Assembly: GCF_011038965.1 (NCBI RefSeq)
Contig: NZ_JAAKEB010000004.1
Span: 1 to 64,000 of the forward strand
DNA length: 64,000 nucleotides
Direction of reading: 5' to 3'
DNA from: Adlercreutzia sp. ZJ141
Lineage (GTDB): Bacteria; Actinomycetota; Coriobacteriia; Coriobacteriales; Eggerthellaceae
The notes under the pieces were generated by a model, which saw nothing but the letters and a program-made list of their open reading frames with translations, did no database searches and was not told the origin of the DNA. The translations under genes and the position numbers were made by a program. This document shows, in pieces, positions 32,040-43,077 of the stretch. The stretch's first letter is position 1, and every line of letters begins with the position of its first letter.

Positions 32040-32555
32040 ATGGACAACCGTGTCTACGAACTGCTGAATGACCAGATCAACAAAGAGCTGTATTCGGCGT
32101 ACCTGTACCTGTCGTTTGCTGACTACTATGAGGAAGAGGGCTTGTCCGGTTTTGCAAATTGGTATGAAATTCAGGCGCAGGAAGAGCGCGACCATGCGAT
32201 GATCTTCCGTAACTATCTGCACGAGAATGGTTGCGCGGTGAAGCTTTTGGCCATCGATCAGCCCGACAAGCAGTTCTCCAACTTCTTGGAGCCGCTGGAG
32301 GCCGCAGCTGAGCACGAGCGCTACGTGACCGGCCTCATCAACGACATCTATGCCGCCGCTGTGGAGGTTAAGGATTACCGTACGTGCAAGTTCCTCGACT
32401 GGTTTATCGAAGAGCAGCAGGAAGAGGAAGACAACGCCGACACCATGGTTACTCGCATGAAGCTGTTCGGCAACGACACCAAGGCGCTCTACGACCTGGA
32501 TCGCGAGAATGCAGCGCGCGTATACAGCGTACCTTCTCCGCTTGCCGCCGAGTAA
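32040..32555 (+). CDS. ftn: Ferritin
   Basis: 171 residues, ATG 32040 with AAGGAGG upstream. It is a non-heme bacterial ferritin with the ferroxidase centre pattern: LNDQINKELYSAYLYLSFADY (Glu17 region), EIQAQEERDHAMIF (Glu and His), YRTCKFLDWFIEEQQEEEDNADT (Glu and Gln). The length matches FtnA. It forms 24-mer cages that oxidise and store iron and limit oxidative damage. It stands alone, with a terminator 50 bp after the stop. Confidence 0.96.
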   Translation: MDNRVYELLNDQINKELYSAYLYLSFADYYEEEGLSGFANWYEIQAQEERDHAMIFRNYLHENGCAVKLLAIDQPDKQFSNFLEPLEAAAEHERYVTGLINDIYAAAVEVKDYRTCKFLDWFIEEQQEEEDNADTMVTRMKLFGNDTKALYDLDRENAARVYSVPSPLAAE

Positions 32556-32603
32556 GCAAGAGACAAACAACGGCTCGCGAAGAGCAAGCGCAAAGAACGT
32601 TTC

Positions 32604-32640
32604 CAAAAGAGGCGAGTCCAGTGAGGGCTCGTCTCTTTTG
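32604..32640 (+). terminator. Terminator after ferritin
   Basis: Long stem CAAAAGAGGCGAG.../...CTCGTCTCTTTTG whose right arm ends in a T-run. It would work in both directions. Confidence 0.8.
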
Positions 32641-32789
32641 CGCTGAGTGTGCATCCAGCTCTAAGCGAAGTGCGAAAGAAGGAAAACCACCCGCTGTACA
32701 GGTGATCGTGTTTGGTGTGTAGACTCGGGCAAGAAGTGACGTCTCGAGATATTCTTCTGCCTCATAGGTTCACTCGAATGCTCTATAAA

Positions 32790-33076
32790 CTACCACTTTT
32801 TTCACGAAATGCGCGATTGAGCAAAGTCAGCCGTGTCTTCGGGAAGTTTTTTCACGAAATGTACGAATCGAAACACGCGAAAGTGGGGCGAAAACGGCAC
32901 ACTTTCCTTCTCCGCTCAGACAAGAACTACGTTTTCCCTGTTCAGGAATGAACATTGATTTTCCCTCACACTTACCGTCCTCTGAATACAATCCTTTGTT
33001 TGTACATTTCGTAAAAAAACTTCCCGAAGACACGGCTGACTTTGCTCAATCGCGCATTTTGTAGAAAAAGTGGTAG
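32790..33076. repeat. 287-bp inverted-repeat element, copy 1
   Basis: Terminal inverted repeats of 75 bp (32790-32864 and 33002-33076) differing at only a few positions. Each arm contains two related words of the form CCACTTTTTTCACGAAATG, one at the outer and one at the inner end. The 137-bp core includes CGAAAGTGGGGCGAAAACGG. A second copy of exactly the same length lies at 36737-37023. No open frame inside is plausible. It could be a non-autonomous transposable element or encode a very long hairpin RNA. No clear target duplication is visible. Confidence 0.9.
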
Positions 33077-33295
33077 TTAGTGGGTGGGAGCTTTTGGCGA
33101 ATTGCGCTTCGAACGAAGCTTGCGCCCTGTTCTCTTCGTACGCACTTCGTTTTCATTAAGATCTATTGAGCGGCATGAGCAGAACGTCTTGTTCCTTAAG
33201 TTCCTTAAGTGCGGCGTACATGTTATACACCCAGGTCATATACACTCAGATCAGTGGTACAGTGATTCTGTTAACGGTTCGAGAGGGCGGATGTT

Positions 33296-36200
33296 ATGAA
33301 CAGCTTACAGAACAAGATCTTGTCCAGCATCCAGCAAAACGCCAACGAAAGACAAAGCGCATCTCAAGCGTGTGTTCGAATCGAAGGCGTGGAATATCAC
33401 TTCCTTGAACGCATTTGCTCGATAGATGGCGAAAACGAAATTGTGACCTGCACTTCACCTGACGGATTGAAGCGATACACAACTGCTCATACATGGGACG
33501 AAGCCGCAGTCTCTAATCCACCTGTCAAATCCGTTACCAGTTCAGGCTCAACGGATTTTCACTCGGCAAAGCCCTCGTCGAACACGCCAACCAAACTTGC
33601 CACCAGCTCAGGCAATGCCACTCAAGGAGATCTCCAACAGGCAATTCTTACCGTAACCGCGAGCAGCTCGTCACGAGAAAAGCTTGCACTATTCCGCTCT
33701 CTTTTTACTGGCCGAAAAGACGTTTACGCCAAAAGTTACTTCTCTCGCAGAGCTAATTGCATCGGTTACGCTCCTGCTTGCTCAAACGATTGGAAACAGG
33801 GGGTTTGTGGCAAGCTTCACCATCCATCCGTCAAGTGTGCAGCTTGCGATAAGCGGGATTTTATCCCGCTTGATGATAATGTGATCCTCTCTCACTTCAA
33901 GGGATCAAGCAAGCAAGATGTTGGCATTGTGGCGATATATCCCCTGGTTGACGAGTCAAAAACCAGAGTGCTCGTTGTCGACTTTGACAAAGCGGACTGG
34001 GGACGAGCAGCGAGTACGTTTCGTCATACTTGCGAGCAAGCGCGCGTTCCTGTAGCTATTGAGCGATCTCGCTCTGGAAACGGTGCGCATGCGTGGATCT
34101 TCTTTAGCGAAGCCGTGGAAGCGTCAGCAGCTCGACAACTTGGGTGCGCCTTGATTACTCGTGCAATGGAGTCTGATCCTGCTCTAAACTTCGAGTCGTA
34201 TGACCGAATGTTCCCAAACCAAGACTCAACGCCAACCGGTGGTTTTGGCAACGCTATCGCACTGCCCTTTCAAGGAACCGCACGACAGAACGAAAACACT
34301 GTGTTCGTCGATGAGAATTATGTACCTTACCCAGACCAATGGGCGTATCTTGCCTCGATTAGACGTATGACCCCTGATGAGCTTTCGTCTGTATTGCGCC
34401 GCATAGGATCTCAATCACTCGGCGACTTAGTAACGTTTGATACAGAAGAAGCCGTTTCGGAAGAAGGTGCTTTCAAGCAACCTGGACTCACCGAAGTTTC
34501 GCCGAAAGCGGAAGCGGAAGCGAACGTGCAGACGGAAATGCAGCTTCCTTGGGCACCACGTACTCGTTTGAAACTGAACCAGCACGACGTTCCGCCCCAT
34601 GTTGTGCTCGTGCGATCCAACCTTATCTATGTGAAATCCGAAGGTTTTTCCGCTGCGGCACTCAATAAGATCAAGCGTCTTGCCGCAATGAGCAACCCCG
34701 AATTCTACCGAGCGCAAGCAATGAGACAGCCTGTGTATGGAAAACCGCGCATCCTTTATTTTGGAGAAAGCACCAACGCATGGATCGGGTTGCCTCGCGG
34801 GTGTGAAGTGTCGTTATGCAGCTTACTTCGTTCGTGCGGAGCGACCGTACAGTTCGACAACCGCTTTTGTGAAGGCAGGGCAATCAGCGTTCGCTTCAAA
34901 GGGGAATTGCGCCCGAACCAGAGTATCGCGGCAGACAAGATGATCGAGCACGATACGGGGATCCTCGTTGCGCCAACAGCATTCGGAAAAACCGTGGTTG
35001 CAGCGAGCATGATAGCCCGCCTTCACGTTACCACGTTGGTGCTTGTCCCGAACTCCGCGCTGCTTGCACAATGGCGCGAGCGACTCGCGGAGTTTCTCGA
35101 CATTGACGAGAAGCTTCCCGATTTGCTTACGCCAACAGGTCGCAAAAGCAAAAAGAAGCGTTCGGTTATCGGGCAGATCGGCGCAGGAAAGCGATTGTCG
35201 AGTGGTATTATTGATGTTGCACTGGTGCCCGCTTTGTTTGAGAAAGGCGAAGTTGCCGGCGAAAAGTTGGTGTCGAGCATCGTTGAACAGTATGGTTTGG
35301 TAATCTGCGACGAATGTCATCACGTGCCCGCATTCAGTTTTGAACAGGTTATGCGTGCAGTGAAGGCTCAACGTGTGTACGGTCTGACGGCAACGCCCAA
35401 ACGCGCCGACGGACTTCAGGGGATCGCTTTCATGCAGTGCGGCCCCATTCGTCATCGAGTTAAGACAGGTGGGGCGGATGAGTCGAGACAGCTCGTACGT
35501 ATCATGACGCCAAGGTTCACCAAAACCCGACTTGATGATGTAGATCAAAGTAATTTCGTACAAATTATTGAGGGCCTGGCGGCAGATCAGTCGCGCAATG
35601 AGTTTGTCGTCAAAGATGTCGCGCATTCGCTCGAGCAGGGCAAGCATCCGCTTGTGCTTACGCGCAGGATCGATCATGCTGAAACACTCGCCAACATGAT
35701 TGAAAAGCAGGGATACCCAGTAATGCTTCTGGTTGGGTCTGATTCCCAAAAGGAAAAGCGCAAGAAGTTGGAGCAGCTTTACGGAACAGATGAGATAAAA
35801 CCGCTCTGCATCGTAGCGACAGGAAGCTACATTGGTGAAGGTTTCGACAATGATCGACTTGACACCTTGTTCCTGGCTGCGCCCATATCATGGAGTGGAC
35901 TTGTTGCTCAATATGTCGGTCGACTTCACCGTATTCGTGAAGGAAAAAGTGAAGTGATCGTCTACGATTACGTTGATGCACAGGTGGGCATGCTCGACAG
36001 GATGTATCGGAAGCGGTTGAAGGAATACGCAGCTCAAGGGTACTCGCTTCGCGCCTGGGAAGGTGAAGAGGATAACAGGGGAGAATTCGTGGCGAAAGAC
36101 GCCTTTGCAGCGCGCTTCGAGGACGACATCGCCCACGCGACGAAGCGAATCAGCATCGCAAGTTCCGACGTTCATCGAGCTCGAATTGAGTCTGTTGTAA

Positions 36201-36535
36201 AGTTCATCGAAGCTGCAATGACACGAGATGTTGCTGTATGTGTATTGTTGCCCGATCCCGCTGCTGTCAAGCCGAAGCGAAAAGCATCCATTGTTGTTGC
36301 TACTGATACCCTCCGGCAGATTGGAGCAGTTGTGGAGTACGGTAGCTCATGCCCGAATCTTACGATCATTGATAGCCGTACGGTATGGTATGGCGGTATA
36401 GGTGCCCTCGCTTTTTCTAAGTCTGACGCGCAAGTGCTTCGATTCTCCAGCAGCGATGTCGCTCATGAGCTAGAAAGTGCGGTCTGGGCGCAATCACGAG
36501 CCTTGACGGATGCGCATAAGGTGCCAACCAAATAG
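33296..36535 (+). CDS. Primase-helicase (AEP plus SF2 helicase), TOTE-conflict-system-like
   Basis: 1079 residues. A Cys cluster (C155, C162, C171, C181, C184) resembles the zinc region that precedes this primase type. An archaeo-eukaryotic primase domain follows: VVDFDKADWG (D229, D231), SGNGAHAWIFF (H265) and RMFPNQDSTPTGGFGNAIAL (304-323). The SF2 helicase core has APTAFGKT (559-566), DECHH (672-676), GLTATPKR (696-703) and QYVGRLHRIREG (about 898). The C-terminal 130 residues look like a PLD-type fold but lack an HKxxxxD motif. From memory this architecture is annotated as TOTE conflict system primase/helicase. It is flanked on both sides by 287-bp inverted-repeat elements. A role in defence or element maintenance is inferred. 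Confidence 0.88.
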   Translation: MNSLQNKILSSIQQNANERQSASQACVRIEGVEYHFLERICSIDGENEIVTCTSPDGLKRYTTAHTWDEAAVSNPPVKSVTSSGSTDFHSAKPSSNTPTKLATSSGNATQGDLQQAILTVTASSSSREKLALFRSLFTGRKDVYAKSYFSRRANCIGYAPACSNDWKQGVCGKLHHPSVKCAACDKRDFIPLDDNVILSHFKGSSKQDVGIVAIYPLVDESKTRVLVVDFDKADWGRAASTFRHTCEQARVPVAIERSRSGNGAHAWIFFSEAVEASAARQLGCALITRAMESDPALNFESYDRMFPNQDSTPTGGFGNAIALPFQGTARQNENTVFVDENYVPYPDQWAYLASIRRMTPDELSSVLRRIGSQSLGDLVTFDTEEAVSEEGAFKQPGLTEVSPKAEAEANVQTEMQLPWAPRTRLKLNQHDVPPHVVLVRSNLIYVKSEGFSAAALNKIKRLAAMSNPEFYRAQAMRQPVYGKPRILYFGESTNAWIGLPRGCEVSLCSLLRSCGATVQFDNRFCEGRAISVRFKGELRPNQSIAADKMIEHDTGILVAPTAFGKTVVAASMIARLHVTTLVLVPNSALLAQWRERLAEFLDIDEKLPDLLTPTGRKSKKKRSVIGQIGAGKRLSSGIIDVALVPALFEKGEVAGEKLVSSIVEQYGLVICDECHHVPAFSFEQVMRAVKAQRVYGLTATPKRADGLQGIAFMQCGPIRHRVKTGGADESRQLVRIMTPRFTKTRLDDVDQSNFVQIIEGLAADQSRNEFVVKDVAHSLEQGKHPLVLTRRIDHAETLANMIEKQGYPVMLLVGSDSQKEKRKKLEQLYGTDEIKPLCIVATGSYIGEGFDNDRLDTLFLAAPISWSGLVAQYVGRLHRIREGKSEVIVYDYVDAQVGMLDRMYRKRLKEYAAQGYSLRAWEGEEDNRGEFVAKDAFAARFEDDIAHATKRISIASSDVHRARIESVVKFIEAAMTRDVAVCVLLPDPAAVKPKRKASIVVATDTLRQIGAVVEYGSSCPNLTIIDSRTVWYGGIGALAFSKSDAQVLRFSSSDVAHELESAVWAQSRALTDAHKVPTK

Positions 36536-36736
36536 ACAACCTAAGAACGACAGGGGGTGCTGTTTCCGATAATTGAGACATATGGCTGCTGCTTCCACAA
36601 ATTCTTGATCAAGGCTGACAGAGACATGATGTATCACAAGGTAATACAAGTCTTTTTCGTATGTTCACAATAGGGGGTTATGGCGGGATCGTTCCTGCCG
36701 AGACTTTGCTTGAATGCGAGGTTGCGTTTCCTGTTT

Positions 36737-37023
36737 GCCGCCACTTTTTCCGCGAAATGCGCGATTGTGCAGAAAATATCGAGCTCGCTGCCACTTTTTG
36801 CACGATATGTACGATTTGAACATACGAAAGTGGGGCGAAAACGGCATGCGATTCTTCACCGTTCAGGCGGGAATGACGTTTCCCCTGGTCAGGAATGAGC
36901 GGTTATTTTCCCCCAATCTACAGTTCGCTGAAAACAGCCCTTTGTCCGTACATATCGTGAAAAAAGTGGCAGCAGAGGCAGCTTACTTTACACAATCGCT
37001 CATACCGTGAAAAAAGTGGCAGC
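36737..37023. repeat. 287-bp inverted-repeat element, copy 2
   Basis: Same length and order as the copy at 32790, in the same orientation, but clearly diverged. Arms of about 78 bp pair with more mismatches. Four CCACTTTTT-type words occur (two per arm). The core again contains CGAAAGTGGGGCGAAAACGG and TCAGGAATGA. It lies between the primase-helicase stop and the end of the DUF559-like gene. Confidence 0.85.
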
Positions 37024-37075
37024 GGACGGGAGTTCTTGTGCGTAATCGTATGCTTTGGACATTGCCTATGATTGT

Positions 37076-38065
37076 TTATTTCGTTCCCAATAGTTCACAC
37101 CGTAAGGCATAGCGAGTCGACAGCGCTCTCTTCGCTGAAAAGCGAAGTCGCACGTTTAGACGGCGAGCAACGAATCTTGCAATCATATCTGTTTCGTTCG
37201 CGTTGTAAAGCTGCCCCCTTGTTACCGTCACCACAAACACATCGGCGGAATTCAAGCGTACTCTGCGCTGGGAATCGAGCTGACGACTCTTGTCATCTGC
37301 ATGCCACGAATCGGAGTCATACTCCAACGCCAAGCGCGCATCTGGCCAATACAGGTCGCAGCGTCGCTGTTGCGTTCGTTGCGCGTTACTGTAGTTTCCA
37401 GAAGGAACAAAAACATCCGCATTCATTACGGGAAACGGTATTCCGTACCCTCCGAGCATGCGAGGTAGGCATAGCAACAGCGCGAGCTTCGTCTCCATAG
37501 GGGATGCCGAGTTGTCGCGCACAAACCTTGCCGCTCGTAGCGCATTTCGACTTCCTCGCAGCTTGGATGCAAGATCAATGAAGCGGAGGATATCTTTTTG
37601 TGTTGTAAGTGGCTTTCGGCGAACAAAGCCTCTTTCTGCGTCGTCATCTGAAAGGGTCGACTCTTCGGTTGGCGTTGCGTATGAACCGCATAACTCGTAA
37701 CCCAACTGGATGGTTTCGATCAGAGACAAAGTTTCCGCCATCTGGACAAACATCAGCTCGGGGCTTGCGACGTTGATCCCTTTCGCCACTTCAACGAAAC
37801 TGCCACGGGGTAAATCGAGATTCAACACGTGTGGGCAAAAAAAGCGCGAAGGACGTCGGTCTTGGGCTCTGGAAACCACTGTGTGAATGGGGTGCTCTTG
37901 CGAAAGCCCCAACATATCGCAGATATTGCAAGCTTCGCTTTTGCTTACATGTAGACCATGGGAAACTGGCCGATATTTCACGGTCGTGAACTTCTCCGAA
38001 GAAGGGAGACTTCCTTTTCCGTGCCAAAACTCGCATGCTGTTTTATGTGTAACGAAGTAGTTCAT
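37076..38065 (-). CDS. DUF559/Vsr-like endonuclease-fold protein
   Basis: About 329 residues. The start is uncertain: ATG 38065 is used, ATG 38077 is also possible, and neither has a ribosome site. The C-terminal third matches the DUF559/Vsr-like branch of the PD-(D/E)XK fold: ETKLALLLCLP, then RCDLYWPDARLALEYDSDSWH and LNSADVFVVTVTRGQL. The N-terminal 200 residues (MNYFVTHKTACEFWHGKG) resemble the AbiEi-like or unknown N-terminal halves of long coriobacterial relatives. It is convergent with the primase-helicase and separated only by the second repeat element. Function is not known; DNA cleavage is plausible because acidic residues of the fold are kept. Confidence 0.72.
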   Translation of the reverse strand: MNYFVTHKTACEFWHGKGSLPSSEKFTTVKYRPVSHGLHVSKSEACNICDMLGLSQEHPIHTVVSRAQDRRPSRFFCPHVLNLDLPRGSFVEVAKGINVASPELMFVQMAETLSLIETIQLGYELCGSYATPTEESTLSDDDAERGFVRRKPLTTQKDILRFIDLASKLRGSRNALRAARFVRDNSASPMETKLALLLCLPRMLGGYGIPFPVMNADVFVPSGNYSNAQRTQQRRCDLYWPDARLALEYDSDSWHADDKSRQLDSQRRVRLNSADVFVVTVTRGQLYNANETDMIARFVARRLNVRLRFSAKRALSTRYALRCELLGTK

Positions 38066-38302
38066 GGCTGTCAGCATAGCGGTCAACTCTATGCAAGACG
38101 TATCGGATTTCTTGCACGGTTCATCTCATTTCTTTTGGGAATCTAACAAATCCTATGGTTTTTCTTGCATGGTAGCAGCATAAATCTGCCGGTTTTCGCG
38201 TCGATTCTATGCTCACCTGTGCTCATTCATTTGACGCTCTGAGTTGACATTGAGTTGCGAGTTGTCGCATTTTGCATTTGATGTATGCTTTCTTCAAACA
38301 AG

Positions 38303-38334
38303 AAAGGCACCTGTTCGATCGAACAGGTGCCTTT
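38303..38334. terminator. Perfect 32-bp palindrome, bidirectional terminator
   Basis: A loopless perfect palindrome centred at CGATCG, beginning with A-run and ending with CCTTTT. It lies between the divergently placed 5' end of the DUF559-like gene and the 3' end of the Pro/Ala-rich membrane protein gene, so it most likely ends transcription of the latter. Confidence 0.75.
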
Positions 38335-38426
38335 TGCTGCGCTTGGTTTCCGAGAAAGACGTTGGGGAAGCTGAGCCTTCCGCTCACGTGTCTCCGTTAC
38401 TCGAGTGACTTCGTTTCTTCGTTGCG

Positions 38427-39254
38427 CTACTTAGTTGTGTCGCTGTCGTCTTCCTTGTGAGCGGCGGGTTGCTCGGGCGCTGCGGGAGTGGTGGCTGCGG
38501 GTTCCGCAGGTGCCTTGGGCTGCGCGGCAGGCGTTGCGGGTGCAACCGGTTGCGCAGGCGTTGCAGGTATCGTAGGCTGCTCAGCTACTGCAGGATAGCC
38601 AGCCGGTGCGGTCGGTGCGGTCGGTGCGGTCGGCGCAGCGTACCCGGGAGCTGCGTATCCAGGAGCAACATGCTGACCATAGGCAGGCTGTTGGCCGTAG
38701 TACTGTCCCGGTTGTGCGGCTCCTGCCTGGGCTTGTGCGTAGTTGTACGACGGTGCGTTTGCGGCCTGTTGCACCTTGTGGATGTATACGGCTTCAAGCA
38801 CCAGTAACACCGTGCTAACAATGCGACCGCACAAAATGGAGCACACGGCGCCGGCGATGGACCATCCAAATGCCGCACCCAGCTTTTCGGACTTGTCGTA
38901 ATTCTTCAGGCCCAAAATGCCAGCGACCAGCGACACCACGCAAAGCAGAGCGCCAATCACGAGGAAGATTACGAAAATATCAATGCCCAAGCCTACAAGA
39001 CCAGCCAGATCATTCTCATCAAAAGAGTAGCCTTCCGCATGAAGCTCGTCCATGCCGTGGGCAATGTCGGGATCGGTTGCCAGTTCCTCGGTAAACTCAC
39101 TGTAGACGTTCGGATCCGACAGCACTATACCGCCGAGTCCTGTGAAGAGCGCTCCAGCGACGAAAGCCGCTATTGCTAATGAGGAAAGGATGATGTTCGC
39201 GATACTGAAGCCGCGAACAAGCTTCGTGTCGGGTGATTGCGTGGTTGCTTGCAT
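38427..39254 (-). CDS. Membrane protein with Pro/Ala/Gly/Tyr-rich tail
   Basis: 275 residues from ATG 39254, with AAAGGAG upstream. Residues about 15-40, 90-115 and 125-150 are hydrophobic helices (IANIILSSLAIAAFVAGALF; GIDIFVIFLVIGALLCVVSLV; WSIAGAVCSILCGRIVSTVL), the pattern of small DUF4190/DUF4064-like proteins. Residues about 165-275 are low complexity: GQYYGQQPAYGQ, a triple APTAPTAPT block, and PA repeats. It has no catalytic motif. It may be a cell-envelope scaffold or a stress protein; function is not known. Confidence 0.75.
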   Translation of the reverse strand: MQATTQSPDTKLVRGFSIANIILSSLAIAAFVAGALFTGLGGIVLSDPNVYSEFTEELATDPDIAHGMDELHAEGYSFDENDLAGLVGLGIDIFVIFLVIGALLCVVSLVAGILGLKNYDKSEKLGAAFGWSIAGAVCSILCGRIVSTVLLVLEAVYIHKVQQAANAPSYNYAQAQAGAAQPGQYYGQQPAYGQHVAPGYAAPGYAAPTAPTAPTAPAGYPAVAEQPTIPATPAQPVAPATPAAQPKAPAEPAATTPAAPEQPAAHKEDDSDTTK

Positions 39255-39632
39255 GGCCACTCCTTTCAAAGAGGGTCTGTTGCGAAAAGTGTTTCCTTGC
39301 CAGCTATTATAGGCGCGCTTGCACGAAGGCAAGCGGACTTCGTGGTGACGGTTTAGCAACGGACAAGCCACAGCAAGCGAACACTTTTGCCCGAATGTGT
39401 CTACATTCTAGACATTTGCCAACTGTCAGTTAAACACTTCGGACGTTTCGGCCTCTTTTGGAAGGTGCTTTTTAGCACCTCTAACCATGCAGTACGTTCT
39501 TTTCCGGGAATACGGTGCGGCGATTTGAGAGCAGCGTGCTGCGAGAGAAACCGCAGGGCTTGTTACCGTTGCGCGCTGCGGGCGAAGGTTTGCGTGTTTC
39601 TCGCACTATACTATGGCGATGTGAGATTTCTC

Positions 39633-40988: not shown

Positions 40989-41354
40989 CTAGTCGTTTTC
41001 GACCAGGCTGTTCACGATGCCCGACACGATAGATATGACGATTGATGCTACAAACGCCGCGCCGAAGCTGGATATAATAATGCCAATCGAGAAGATTCCG
41101 TTTGCAAGCCATGCGGCCAAATAGAGCATGAGCGTGTTCACCACAAGGTAGAAAATGCCCAGCGTCAGCACGCTAATGGGTAGGCTTAAGATCTGCATGA
41201 TGGGCTTGATGCTGATGTTTATCAGCGACAGCACCAGCGCGAACACAGCAATGCCTGCCCACGACGAGGCGCTTACGATGGTGATGCCGGGTACGATCCA
41301 AATGGCCACCCCTACTGAAACAGCGGTTACCAGCCAGCGGATGAGGAAGTTCAT
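40989..41354 (-). CDS. Phage holin family / YvlD-like membrane protein
   Basis: 121 residues from ATG 41354, with AAAGGAC upstream. Four hydrophobic helices (LIRWLVTAVSVGVAIWIV, SWAGIAVFALVLSLINI, LGIFYLVVNTLMLYLAAWL, SSFGAAFVASIVISIVSGI) and a short polar tail. The pattern ISIKPIMQILSLPISVLTLG is diagnostic for the family often annotated phage holin family protein (YvlD/DUF360). Despite the name it is usually a chromosomal membrane protein without a known role. It is monocistronic. Confidence 0.88.
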   Translation of the reverse strand: MNFLIRWLVTAVSVGVAIWIVPGITIVSASSWAGIAVFALVLSLINISIKPIMQILSLPISVLTLGIFYLVVNTLMLYLAAWLANGIFSIGIIISSFGAAFVASIVISIVSGIVNSLVEND

Positions 41355-41559
41355 ACGTTGTCCTTTCGCGAAATAGATGTCGCTCGTGCGTGGCGCTCGG
41401 GCTTGCCAGTGGGTTTCGGCCACTATACCAAACGGCGACAGATAAGCTGCGAGTAGTGAGTCGCTTGTCACGATGTCGTTAACGTTTTCGTTGCGTCGCC
41501 TTCATTGCCTTTGTTTGTTGCCGGTGCCATGGCGCGTTCGGTGTGGCACAATGGGCGGC

Positions 41560-43077
41560 ATGAAGAAAAACGCGAACAACAGGGCGAAAAAGACTGCGTC
41601 GAGCAAACGGGCGCCGTTGCAGCGCGATGTGTCGTCACAGGGCTGCAAGCTGTGTGCGGTGTTCGGGCGCTGCGGCGGGTGTAGTGCGCTTGATGTGCCG
41701 TATTCCGACCAGCTTGCAAACAAGCAGCGGTTTGTGGCCGATCTGTTTGCCGACATGGCTGAACCCGAAGCGCTTCGTCCGATTCTTGGCATGGATGACC
41801 CCTTCCATTACCGCAACAAGGTTGCGTCTCCCTATGCGCCGGGCCGCATGCTGTCAGGTGCGAGTGCGGGCGGTGTGGCTAGTACCCGCAAAGCTACCAG
41901 CGGCGGCAAACGTGTCGGCCGCGAGGGCACACCGGGTAAAGGCAAGGCTGCAGCGTCTGCGGTAGCGCGGGAGCCGCAGCGCCGTGAAATTCTCACCGGC
42001 ATGTACGCGAAGGGTACACACGAGCTTATTCCTACCGACGAATGCGCACTTGAAAACGTTGTGGCCAAAAAGGTGACGCTTGTCGTGCGCGACCTCATGC
42101 GGAAGTGGAACATCGCCCCCTACGATGAAGACACTGGCGAGGGTTTCCTGCGTCATGCGGTGGTTCGCGTAGGGCACTCAAGTGGAGAAGTGCTCGTCAC
42201 ATTAGTAACCAACGATGACGCGTTCCCTTCGTCGAAGTCGTTTTGTCGTGAGCTCGTGCGCCGCGTGCCCGCCATCACCACTGTTGTGCAGAACGTGAAC
42301 ACGCGGCAAACCAACGTGATATTAGGCAGCAAGGAACGCACGTTGTATGGTCCGGGGTTTATTCTCGACACGCTGTGTGGCTTGAGCTTCCGTATTTCGT
42401 CGCGGTCGTTTTACCAGGTAAACGCCACGCAAACCGAAGTGCTATACAACACGGCTATCGATTTGGCTGTGTTGCGGGGTGAAGAAACACTCATCGATGC
42501 GTATTGCGGTACCGGTACCATCGGGTTAGTGGCTGCCAGTTGCGGGGCTGCTCGCGTGATTGGTGTAGACAACGTGGAATCGGCCATTCGCGACGCGCAA
42601 AACAACGCGCGACACAACCGCATTGAAAACGCCGAGTTCGTGACTGCGGATGCAAGCGAGTTTCTGGATGGTCTTGCCGCGCAGATGCGCCTGGGCACTG
42701 CGCAGATGCGCCTGGGCACCGCGCTGCAGTCCGACGGGACCGACGGGTCCGACGGGCAAACGGGAATTACCAATTATACTGGTCTGGCAAGCTTTTCCGG
42801 TGCAGCCAGCCCCGAAAACAACCGGCTCGTGCTGATTATGGATCCGCCGCGAGCGGGTTCTACCGAGCGATTCCTCAGTGCGGCGGCGCGGTTGGCGCCC
42901 GAGCGCATCGTGTACATCTCATGTAATCCCGCAACGCAGGCGCGCGACGTGGCACATCTTGTTGCGCATGGCTATCGCGTGAGTGCCGTGCAGCCGGTTG
43001 ACATGTTCCCTCATACGAGCCATGTGGAATGCGTTTGCGCACTTGAGCGATGCGCGCCACCTTCTCGTGTGAGATAA
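41560..43077 (+). CDS. rlmD: 23S rRNA (uracil-C5) methyltransferase, RlmD/TrmA family
   Basis: 505 residues from ATG 41560 (MKKNANN). An N-terminal iron-sulfur site CKLCAVFGRCGGC is typical of RumA/RlmD. The methyltransferase core has YQVNATQ, DAYCGTGTIGLVAAS, MDPPRAGS with the catalytic region, and YISCNPATQARD, which contains the nucleophilic Cys. A tandem duplication of a 21-bp unit (QMRLGTA twice, 42682-42721) and a Gly/Asp-rich stretch make a non-conserved insertion near residue 385. No Shine-Dalgarno precedes the ATG. It is followed by tilS. Confidence 0.92.
   Translation: MKKNANNRAKKTASSKRAPLQRDVSSQGCKLCAVFGRCGGCSALDVPYSDQLANKQRFVADLFADMAEPEALRPILGMDDPFHYRNKVASPYAPGRMLSGASAGGVASTRKATSGGKRVGREGTPGKGKAAASAVAREPQRREILTGMYAKGTHELIPTDECALENVVAKKVTLVVRDLMRKWNIAPYDEDTGEGFLRHAVVRVGHSSGEVLVTLVTNDDAFPSSKSFCRELVRRVPAITTVVQNVNTRQTNVILGSKERTLYGPGFILDTLCGLSFRISSRSFYQVNATQTEVLYNTAIDLAVLRGEETLIDAYCGTGTIGLVAASCGAARVIGVDNVESAIRDAQNNARHNRIENAEFVTADASEFLDGLAAQMRLGTAQMRLGTALQSDGTDGSDGQTGITNYTGLASFSGAASPENNRLVLIMDPPRAGSTERFLSAAARLAPERIVYISCNPATQARDVAHLVAHGYRVSAVQPVDMFPHTSHVECVCALERCAPPSRVR

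Follow-up and report, generated by a model that had tools for sequence, protein, structure and literature searches.

A primase-helicase and a probable DUF559-like nuclease in a putative acquired island of Adlercreutzia sp. ZJ141

What might a primase accomplish when it is joined to an XPB-type helicase motor outside of CRISPR loci? This question is raised by a gene in a 64,000-nucleotide stretch of DNA from Adlercreutzia sp. ZJ141 (contig NZ_JAAKEB010000004.1, positions 1 to 64,000), which is the window analyzed here. The gene lies between two similar repeats and is followed by a putative nuclease gene, and a sequence-only reading had proposed a mobile defense cassette. Our best explanation, to which we assign a probability of about 0.5 from sequence comparisons, is that the gene encodes a horizontally acquired anti-mobile-element helicase-primase of the non-CRISPR CAPP-helicase/AEP-TOTE family that works with a nuclease. 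The XPB-like motor would open foreign DNA as it enters or replicates, the exposed strand would be primed or copied by the primase domain, and the link from these steps to cutting would be made by the C-terminal module. Other lineages appear to carry a built-in cutter (an HKD PLD or a fused DUF559 domain), whereas the PLD of the coriobacterial clade may have turned into a noncatalytic scaffold. Here, cleavage may fall to the DUF559-like nuclease next door, a role that Bax1 plays for archaeal XPB. A defense function of the island that holds both genes is plausible.

The central gene has the following features.

33296-36535, + strand: primase-helicase open reading frame (ORF), 1079 amino acids as translated from the window; N-terminal extension, Zn-binding AEP-TOTE primase (residues 128-365), XPB-like SF2 helicase (~530-918), and degenerate PLD-like C-terminal domain (~930-1066)

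The protein is a member of the AEP-TOTE family (PF22548), whose profile matches residues 128-365 with an E value of 2.6e-86 and a score of 289 bits versus a curated cut-off of 27. The motor is matched by ResIII (residues 537-703, E 1.1e-20) and weakly by Helicase_C (residues 778-880). A PADLOC model for CRISPR-associated PrimPol also matches (E 1.2e-81), and the NCBIfam models for XPB and for the CRISPR-associated primase-polymerase type both match under their cut-offs. When the protein is aligned with 18 relatives (19 sequences), the primase residues D229, D231, and H265 are invariant. The primase core is invariant as well, the Walker A GKT and the DE of the DEAH-like box vary little or not at all, and C162, C181, and C184 are conserved in at least 90%. 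Profiles and conservation thus confirm the Cys cluster, the archaeo-eukaryotic primase (AEP), and the SF2 helicase that the sequence-only reading had described.

The nearest structures by sequence in the PDB for the helicase part are archaeal XPB helicases, and the best matches of the motor by sequence and fold belong to the XPB family, with XPB-Bax1 complexes included. For the primase part, the nearest chains are 7nqd/7nqf, titled TPR_REGION domain-containing protein, which we take to be a CRISPR-associated Prim-Pol. The predicted structure of the whole protein has a pLDDT (predicted local distance difference test) score of 60, and a PDB fold search with it backs the XPB-like motor only. The score falls below 50 in the C-terminal domain, and therefore the PLD assignment depends on sequence. 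A phage origin of the protein was considered and rejected: Among the phage matches listed, only the helicase part is covered, and a search of viral contigs found no relative of the whole protein. Linkage to CRISPR was likewise rejected, as the sole Cas1 match of the genome is on another contig (C53).

These proteins are not alike at the C terminus. Differences among relatives set in after approximately residue 918, and most proteobacterial and plasmid forms end at about this position. Longer relatives include two with a fused C-terminal DUF559 domain, from Vicinamibacteria (L033, E 4e-13) and Betaproteobacteria (L041, E 5e-13). Two others, from another family of the phylum (L151 and L152), carry a C-terminal PLD with an intact HQKF...D...GSVN motif, and PLDc_2 matches the former with an E value of 3.4e-11. 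In the coriobacterial clade, every aligned member, the window protein included, is similar to this PLD domain but lacks the HxK. The nuclease motif HxK(x4)D(x6)G(S/T)xN is absent from the window protein, which is the deepest member of the clade in our tree (support 100/100). Alignment to relatives that keep HxK...D...GSxN thus supports a PLD fold without the catalytic motif, as had been suspected. Ends that are absent, fused to DUF559, intact HKD PLDs, or degenerate PLDs suggest that one primase-helicase core may carry exchangeable or decayed cutters.

Several known systems resemble parts of this arrangement. Mokosh is a defense system that includes an SF2 helicase with a nuclease domain; the PADLOC MkoB model matches the primase-helicase with just an E value of 0.0022 over 60 residues. 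Druantia/ARMADA combine an SF2 helicase with PLD or PD-(D/E)xK/Vsr nuclease domains, either active or inactivated (PMC12458937). However, Mokosh, Druantia, and ARMADA use other helicase families and have no primase. The nearest worked mechanism is that of XPB-Bax1, an archaeal helicase-nuclease repair system (PMC7293015), which shares the XPB-type SF2 motor and the proposed pairing of helicase with nuclease but has no primase. TOTE conflict systems are cited in PMC12458937 as comprising TPR, OB, TBP, and Effector components. The primase domain, a strong match to the family named for these systems, is all that is shared: The island encodes no TPR, OB, or TBP, just the primase-helicase and the nuclease. 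Finally, Prim-Pol-helicase proteins outside of CRISPR loci have been reported, and hence the architecture is known; the helicase type of non-CRISPR CAPP_A is the most prevalent non-CRISPR architecture and is typically found in mobile elements (PMC8211822). The window protein lacks the linkage to cas genes of CAPP, and it differs from the non-CRISPR helicase type by its degenerate PLD tail and neighboring nuclease.

The position of the gene indicates how it might have been acquired.

32590-38300 (ends approximate), no strand: putative inserted island, between a ferritin gene (ends at 32555) and a small membrane-protein gene (38427-39371)
38303-38334: terminator-like hairpin of the small membrane-protein gene

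The order of the genes for ferritin, the small membrane protein, and alcohol dehydrogenase, followed by the genes at 40989-41471 and 41473-43077, is kept whole or in part in relatives. A search for empty sites, as the sequence-only reading had advised, found this order without the primase-helicase or the nuclease in L181, L183, L184, L187, L190, and L191. The gap between the ferritin and membrane-protein genes holds 1-2 kb of other sequence in some of these relatives and is a few hundred bases or less in L187 and L190. Among the 45 ORFs of the window, the GC content at third codon positions is lowest for the primase-helicase (0.517), followed by the nuclease (0.531), and the GC content of the island is 50% versus 56% in its flanks. 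Low GC values and absence at a kept site in relatives mark both genes as foreign to this site, which supports the view that the segment is a horizontally acquired accessory island.

Relatives of the primase-helicase were sought in 138 genomes of the taxonomic family (Eggerthellaceae), this genome included, and ∼45 loci of relatives were surveyed. The distribution is patchy, with the gene present in 12 of the 138 genomes and several copies broken or reduced to fragments (G086, G065, G066, and G069). Plasmid records that hold a relative number 108. Copies within the taxonomic family are found near type I restriction-modification (R-M) genes (L103, L105), McrBC (L105), GmrSD and a type III-like methylase (L104), a C5 methylase (L106), and AbiE with or without TIR (L097/L098, L100). 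An AbiEii gene, in several cases with AbiEi, shares the strand of the helicase gene and precedes it by 7-170 bp in L097/L098, L100, L151, L152, L153, and L178, which represent different lineages. Such neighbors and broken copies are the pattern of defense or mobile-element genes. L100 (G122:C28) has two AEP-TOTE helicase genes that point the same way, separated by ∼5 kb in which an AbiE operon lies.

The gene next to the primase-helicase was thought to encode a PD-(D/E)XK nuclease, and a DUF559-like one is probable.

37076-38086, - strand: probable DUF559-like PD-(D/E)xK nuclease, 336 amino acids, with invariant D244, E255, Y256, H262, and D271

The gene is convergent with that of the primase-helicase and lies outside of the right-hand repeat. 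The five residues are invariant in an alignment of 19 members of the nuclease family, and the family profile aligns D244/E255/D257/H262 with the DUF559 domains of L033 and L041 (E 4.7e-5, probability 68%). The window nuclease itself is under the Pfam cut-offs, and the nuclease that adjoins the primase-helicase of L102 is above that for DUF559. Nucleases of this family occur in 110 of the 138 genomes, with up to 15 matches per genome, and expansions to 13-15 matches are seen in G041, G129, G053, and G055, for example. This genome holds a single copy, the one at this locus. An alternative reading of the nuclease as an AbiEi fusion found no support (hhalign probability 0.1 versus a two-sequence AbiEi profile). 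Just upstream of the nuclease start, an imperfect 27-bp direct repeat with copies 53 bp apart (38094-38173) could be an operator.

A broader proposal is that AEP-TOTE helicases form an undescribed modular defense family in which the cutter coupled to one core can be exchanged: a fused DUF559, an active PLD, or a dead PLD with the nuclease encoded separately. An AbiE operon directly upstream would often serve as a guard. The window would then represent the form with a dead PLD and the nuclease in trans. We advance this generalization only tentatively and regard it as rather unlikely. Neither the swapping of C-terminal modules nor the linkage to AbiE is described in the literature searched, which did not extend to the original TOTE review or to the majority of subscription papers. 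If the proposal is true, a widespread gene annotated merely as "DEAD/DEAH box helicase" in many phyla would become an immune or anti-plasmid module open to testing. There would also be a role for a primase coupled to an XPB-type motor outside of CRISPR, and evolution would be seen to swap or detach the nuclease of one core.

The main rival to a defense role holds that the primase-helicase is a passenger for mobile-element maintenance or transposition repair, which primed and unwound the DNA of its carrier and is now stranded in the chromosome. Certain relatives weigh against our explanation in this respect. Short AEP-TOTE helicases are found beside triple tyrosine recombinases (L148, L149, L171, L179), overlapping a TniQ gene (L150), and flanked by a resolvase and a Tn3 transposase (L173), and such transposon-borne forms also fit a role in element maintenance, as do the plasmid records and the usual residence of non-CRISPR CAPPs in mobile elements (PMC8211822). 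However, the mobility partner of these relatives is not consistent, the longer coriobacterial and PLD-bearing forms instead accompany R-M, McrBC, and AbiE, and genes for a recombinase, a transposase, a relaxase, or replication are absent from the island. We consider this rival possible but doubtful. A chromosomal primase-helicase for DNA repair or damage tolerance is improbable: Repair helicases (XPB and RadD) are the nearest matches to the motor, but the gene is patchy, partly decayed, of foreign composition, and missing at the conserved site in relatives.

Whether the nuclease is a partner of the primase-helicase is a separate matter. It could instead be an unrelated neighbor that arrived independently at the same accessory site, leaving the primase-helicase to act alone, and we rate this at somewhat less than even odds. 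Here too there is evidence contrary to our explanation. Adjacency is seen at only two of the ∼45 loci (the window and L102), whose nucleases are just 30% identical. The genes in the window are convergent rather than in an operon and have a hairpin element between them. Moreover, genes of this nuclease family are common in the taxonomic family, and thus adjacency could reflect shared hotspots. In contrast, the only nuclease-family copy of the genome is at this locus (P ∼0.002), both genes share a foreign composition, and other phyla have the same helicase fused to a related nuclease. Two adjacencies in the taxonomic family have a P of ∼0.003 under uniform placement, a value that is merely suggestive since accessory genes cluster. 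Unwinding by the helicase with cleavage by a neighbor, as first suggested, is backed by the fusions in distant relatives.

The repeats that flank the primase-helicase gene were originally proposed as possible boundaries of the cassette or as an RNA or DNA component on which the primase might act.

32786-33080, strand not given: hairpin element, left copy; dispersed, palindromic, gene-independent
36739-37024, strand not given: hairpin element, right copy; dispersed, palindromic, gene-independent

As reported earlier, the two have the same orientation and have diverged (73% identical when 32786-33080 is compared with 36741-37022; each is ∼285 bp), but their lengths are near-equal rather than exactly equal. 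The reading of these repeats as cassette ends or a primase template draws on their placement around the gene, and an AAA-ATPase/PDDEXK_9 gene (L108:5585-8049, contig C4) likewise has a full copy on one side and a partial copy on the other. We nevertheless consider it very unlikely. This genome holds 12 copies and at least four fragments; 10 copies are on contigs C3, C4, C18, C23, C24, C37, C55, and C57, unconnected with the primase-helicase gene. All are intergenic, none interrupts a convincing gene, and several adjoin ordinary genes such as that for prephenate dehydrogenase. Two copies within 3.95 kb of each other occur in 21% of random placements. The element was found in none of the other 137 genomes of the taxonomic family, those with the primase-helicase gene included, the sole exception being an isolated pattern hit with two mismatches in G028. 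In addition, the nuclease lies outside of the pair, and no direct repeat of at least 9 bases is shared between 32556-32790 and 38040-38430, as would be expected to flank a composite transposon or a cassette bounded by miniature inverted-repeat transposable elements (MITEs). The number of copies, their absence from gene-bearing relatives, and their chance spacing indicate that the repeats are not cassette ends. The sequence-only reading had itself named such a scatter of elements, unlinked to the gene, as refuting a cassette, and for one bounded by the repeats this refutation holds. They are bystanders, independent of the gene, and the original interpretation is corrected accordingly: An acquired insertion with relatives in defense islands and mobile elements stands, whereas its repeat boundaries and the repeats as a primase component do not.

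REP/BIME, BOX, and MITE-like elements are dispersed palindromic repeats that are multicopy, intergenic, and hairpin-forming. The window element is similar in being multicopy and intergenic with long terminal inverted repeats and a hairpin, but it is confined to one genome so far and has no match in Rfam. It was not found in plasmids or in viral contigs, the latter scanned with a single exact 18-base pattern, and no mobilizer was identified. The inverted arms of each repeat measure ∼67-80 bp and are 94% complementary in the left copy; the repeat forms a hairpin of ∼67 pairs around a center of ∼115-135 bases. Of the 67 arm pairs, 22 have changed in both arms, and pairing is kept in 91% of cells versus 33%-45% when the arms are slid. 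This covariation could also be explained by relatedness of the copies and arm-to-arm conversion. An ORF that recurs inside several copies was discounted as a probable consequence of their similarity in DNA sequence. Across the copies, the center of the element is conserved and its outer ends take two alternative forms.
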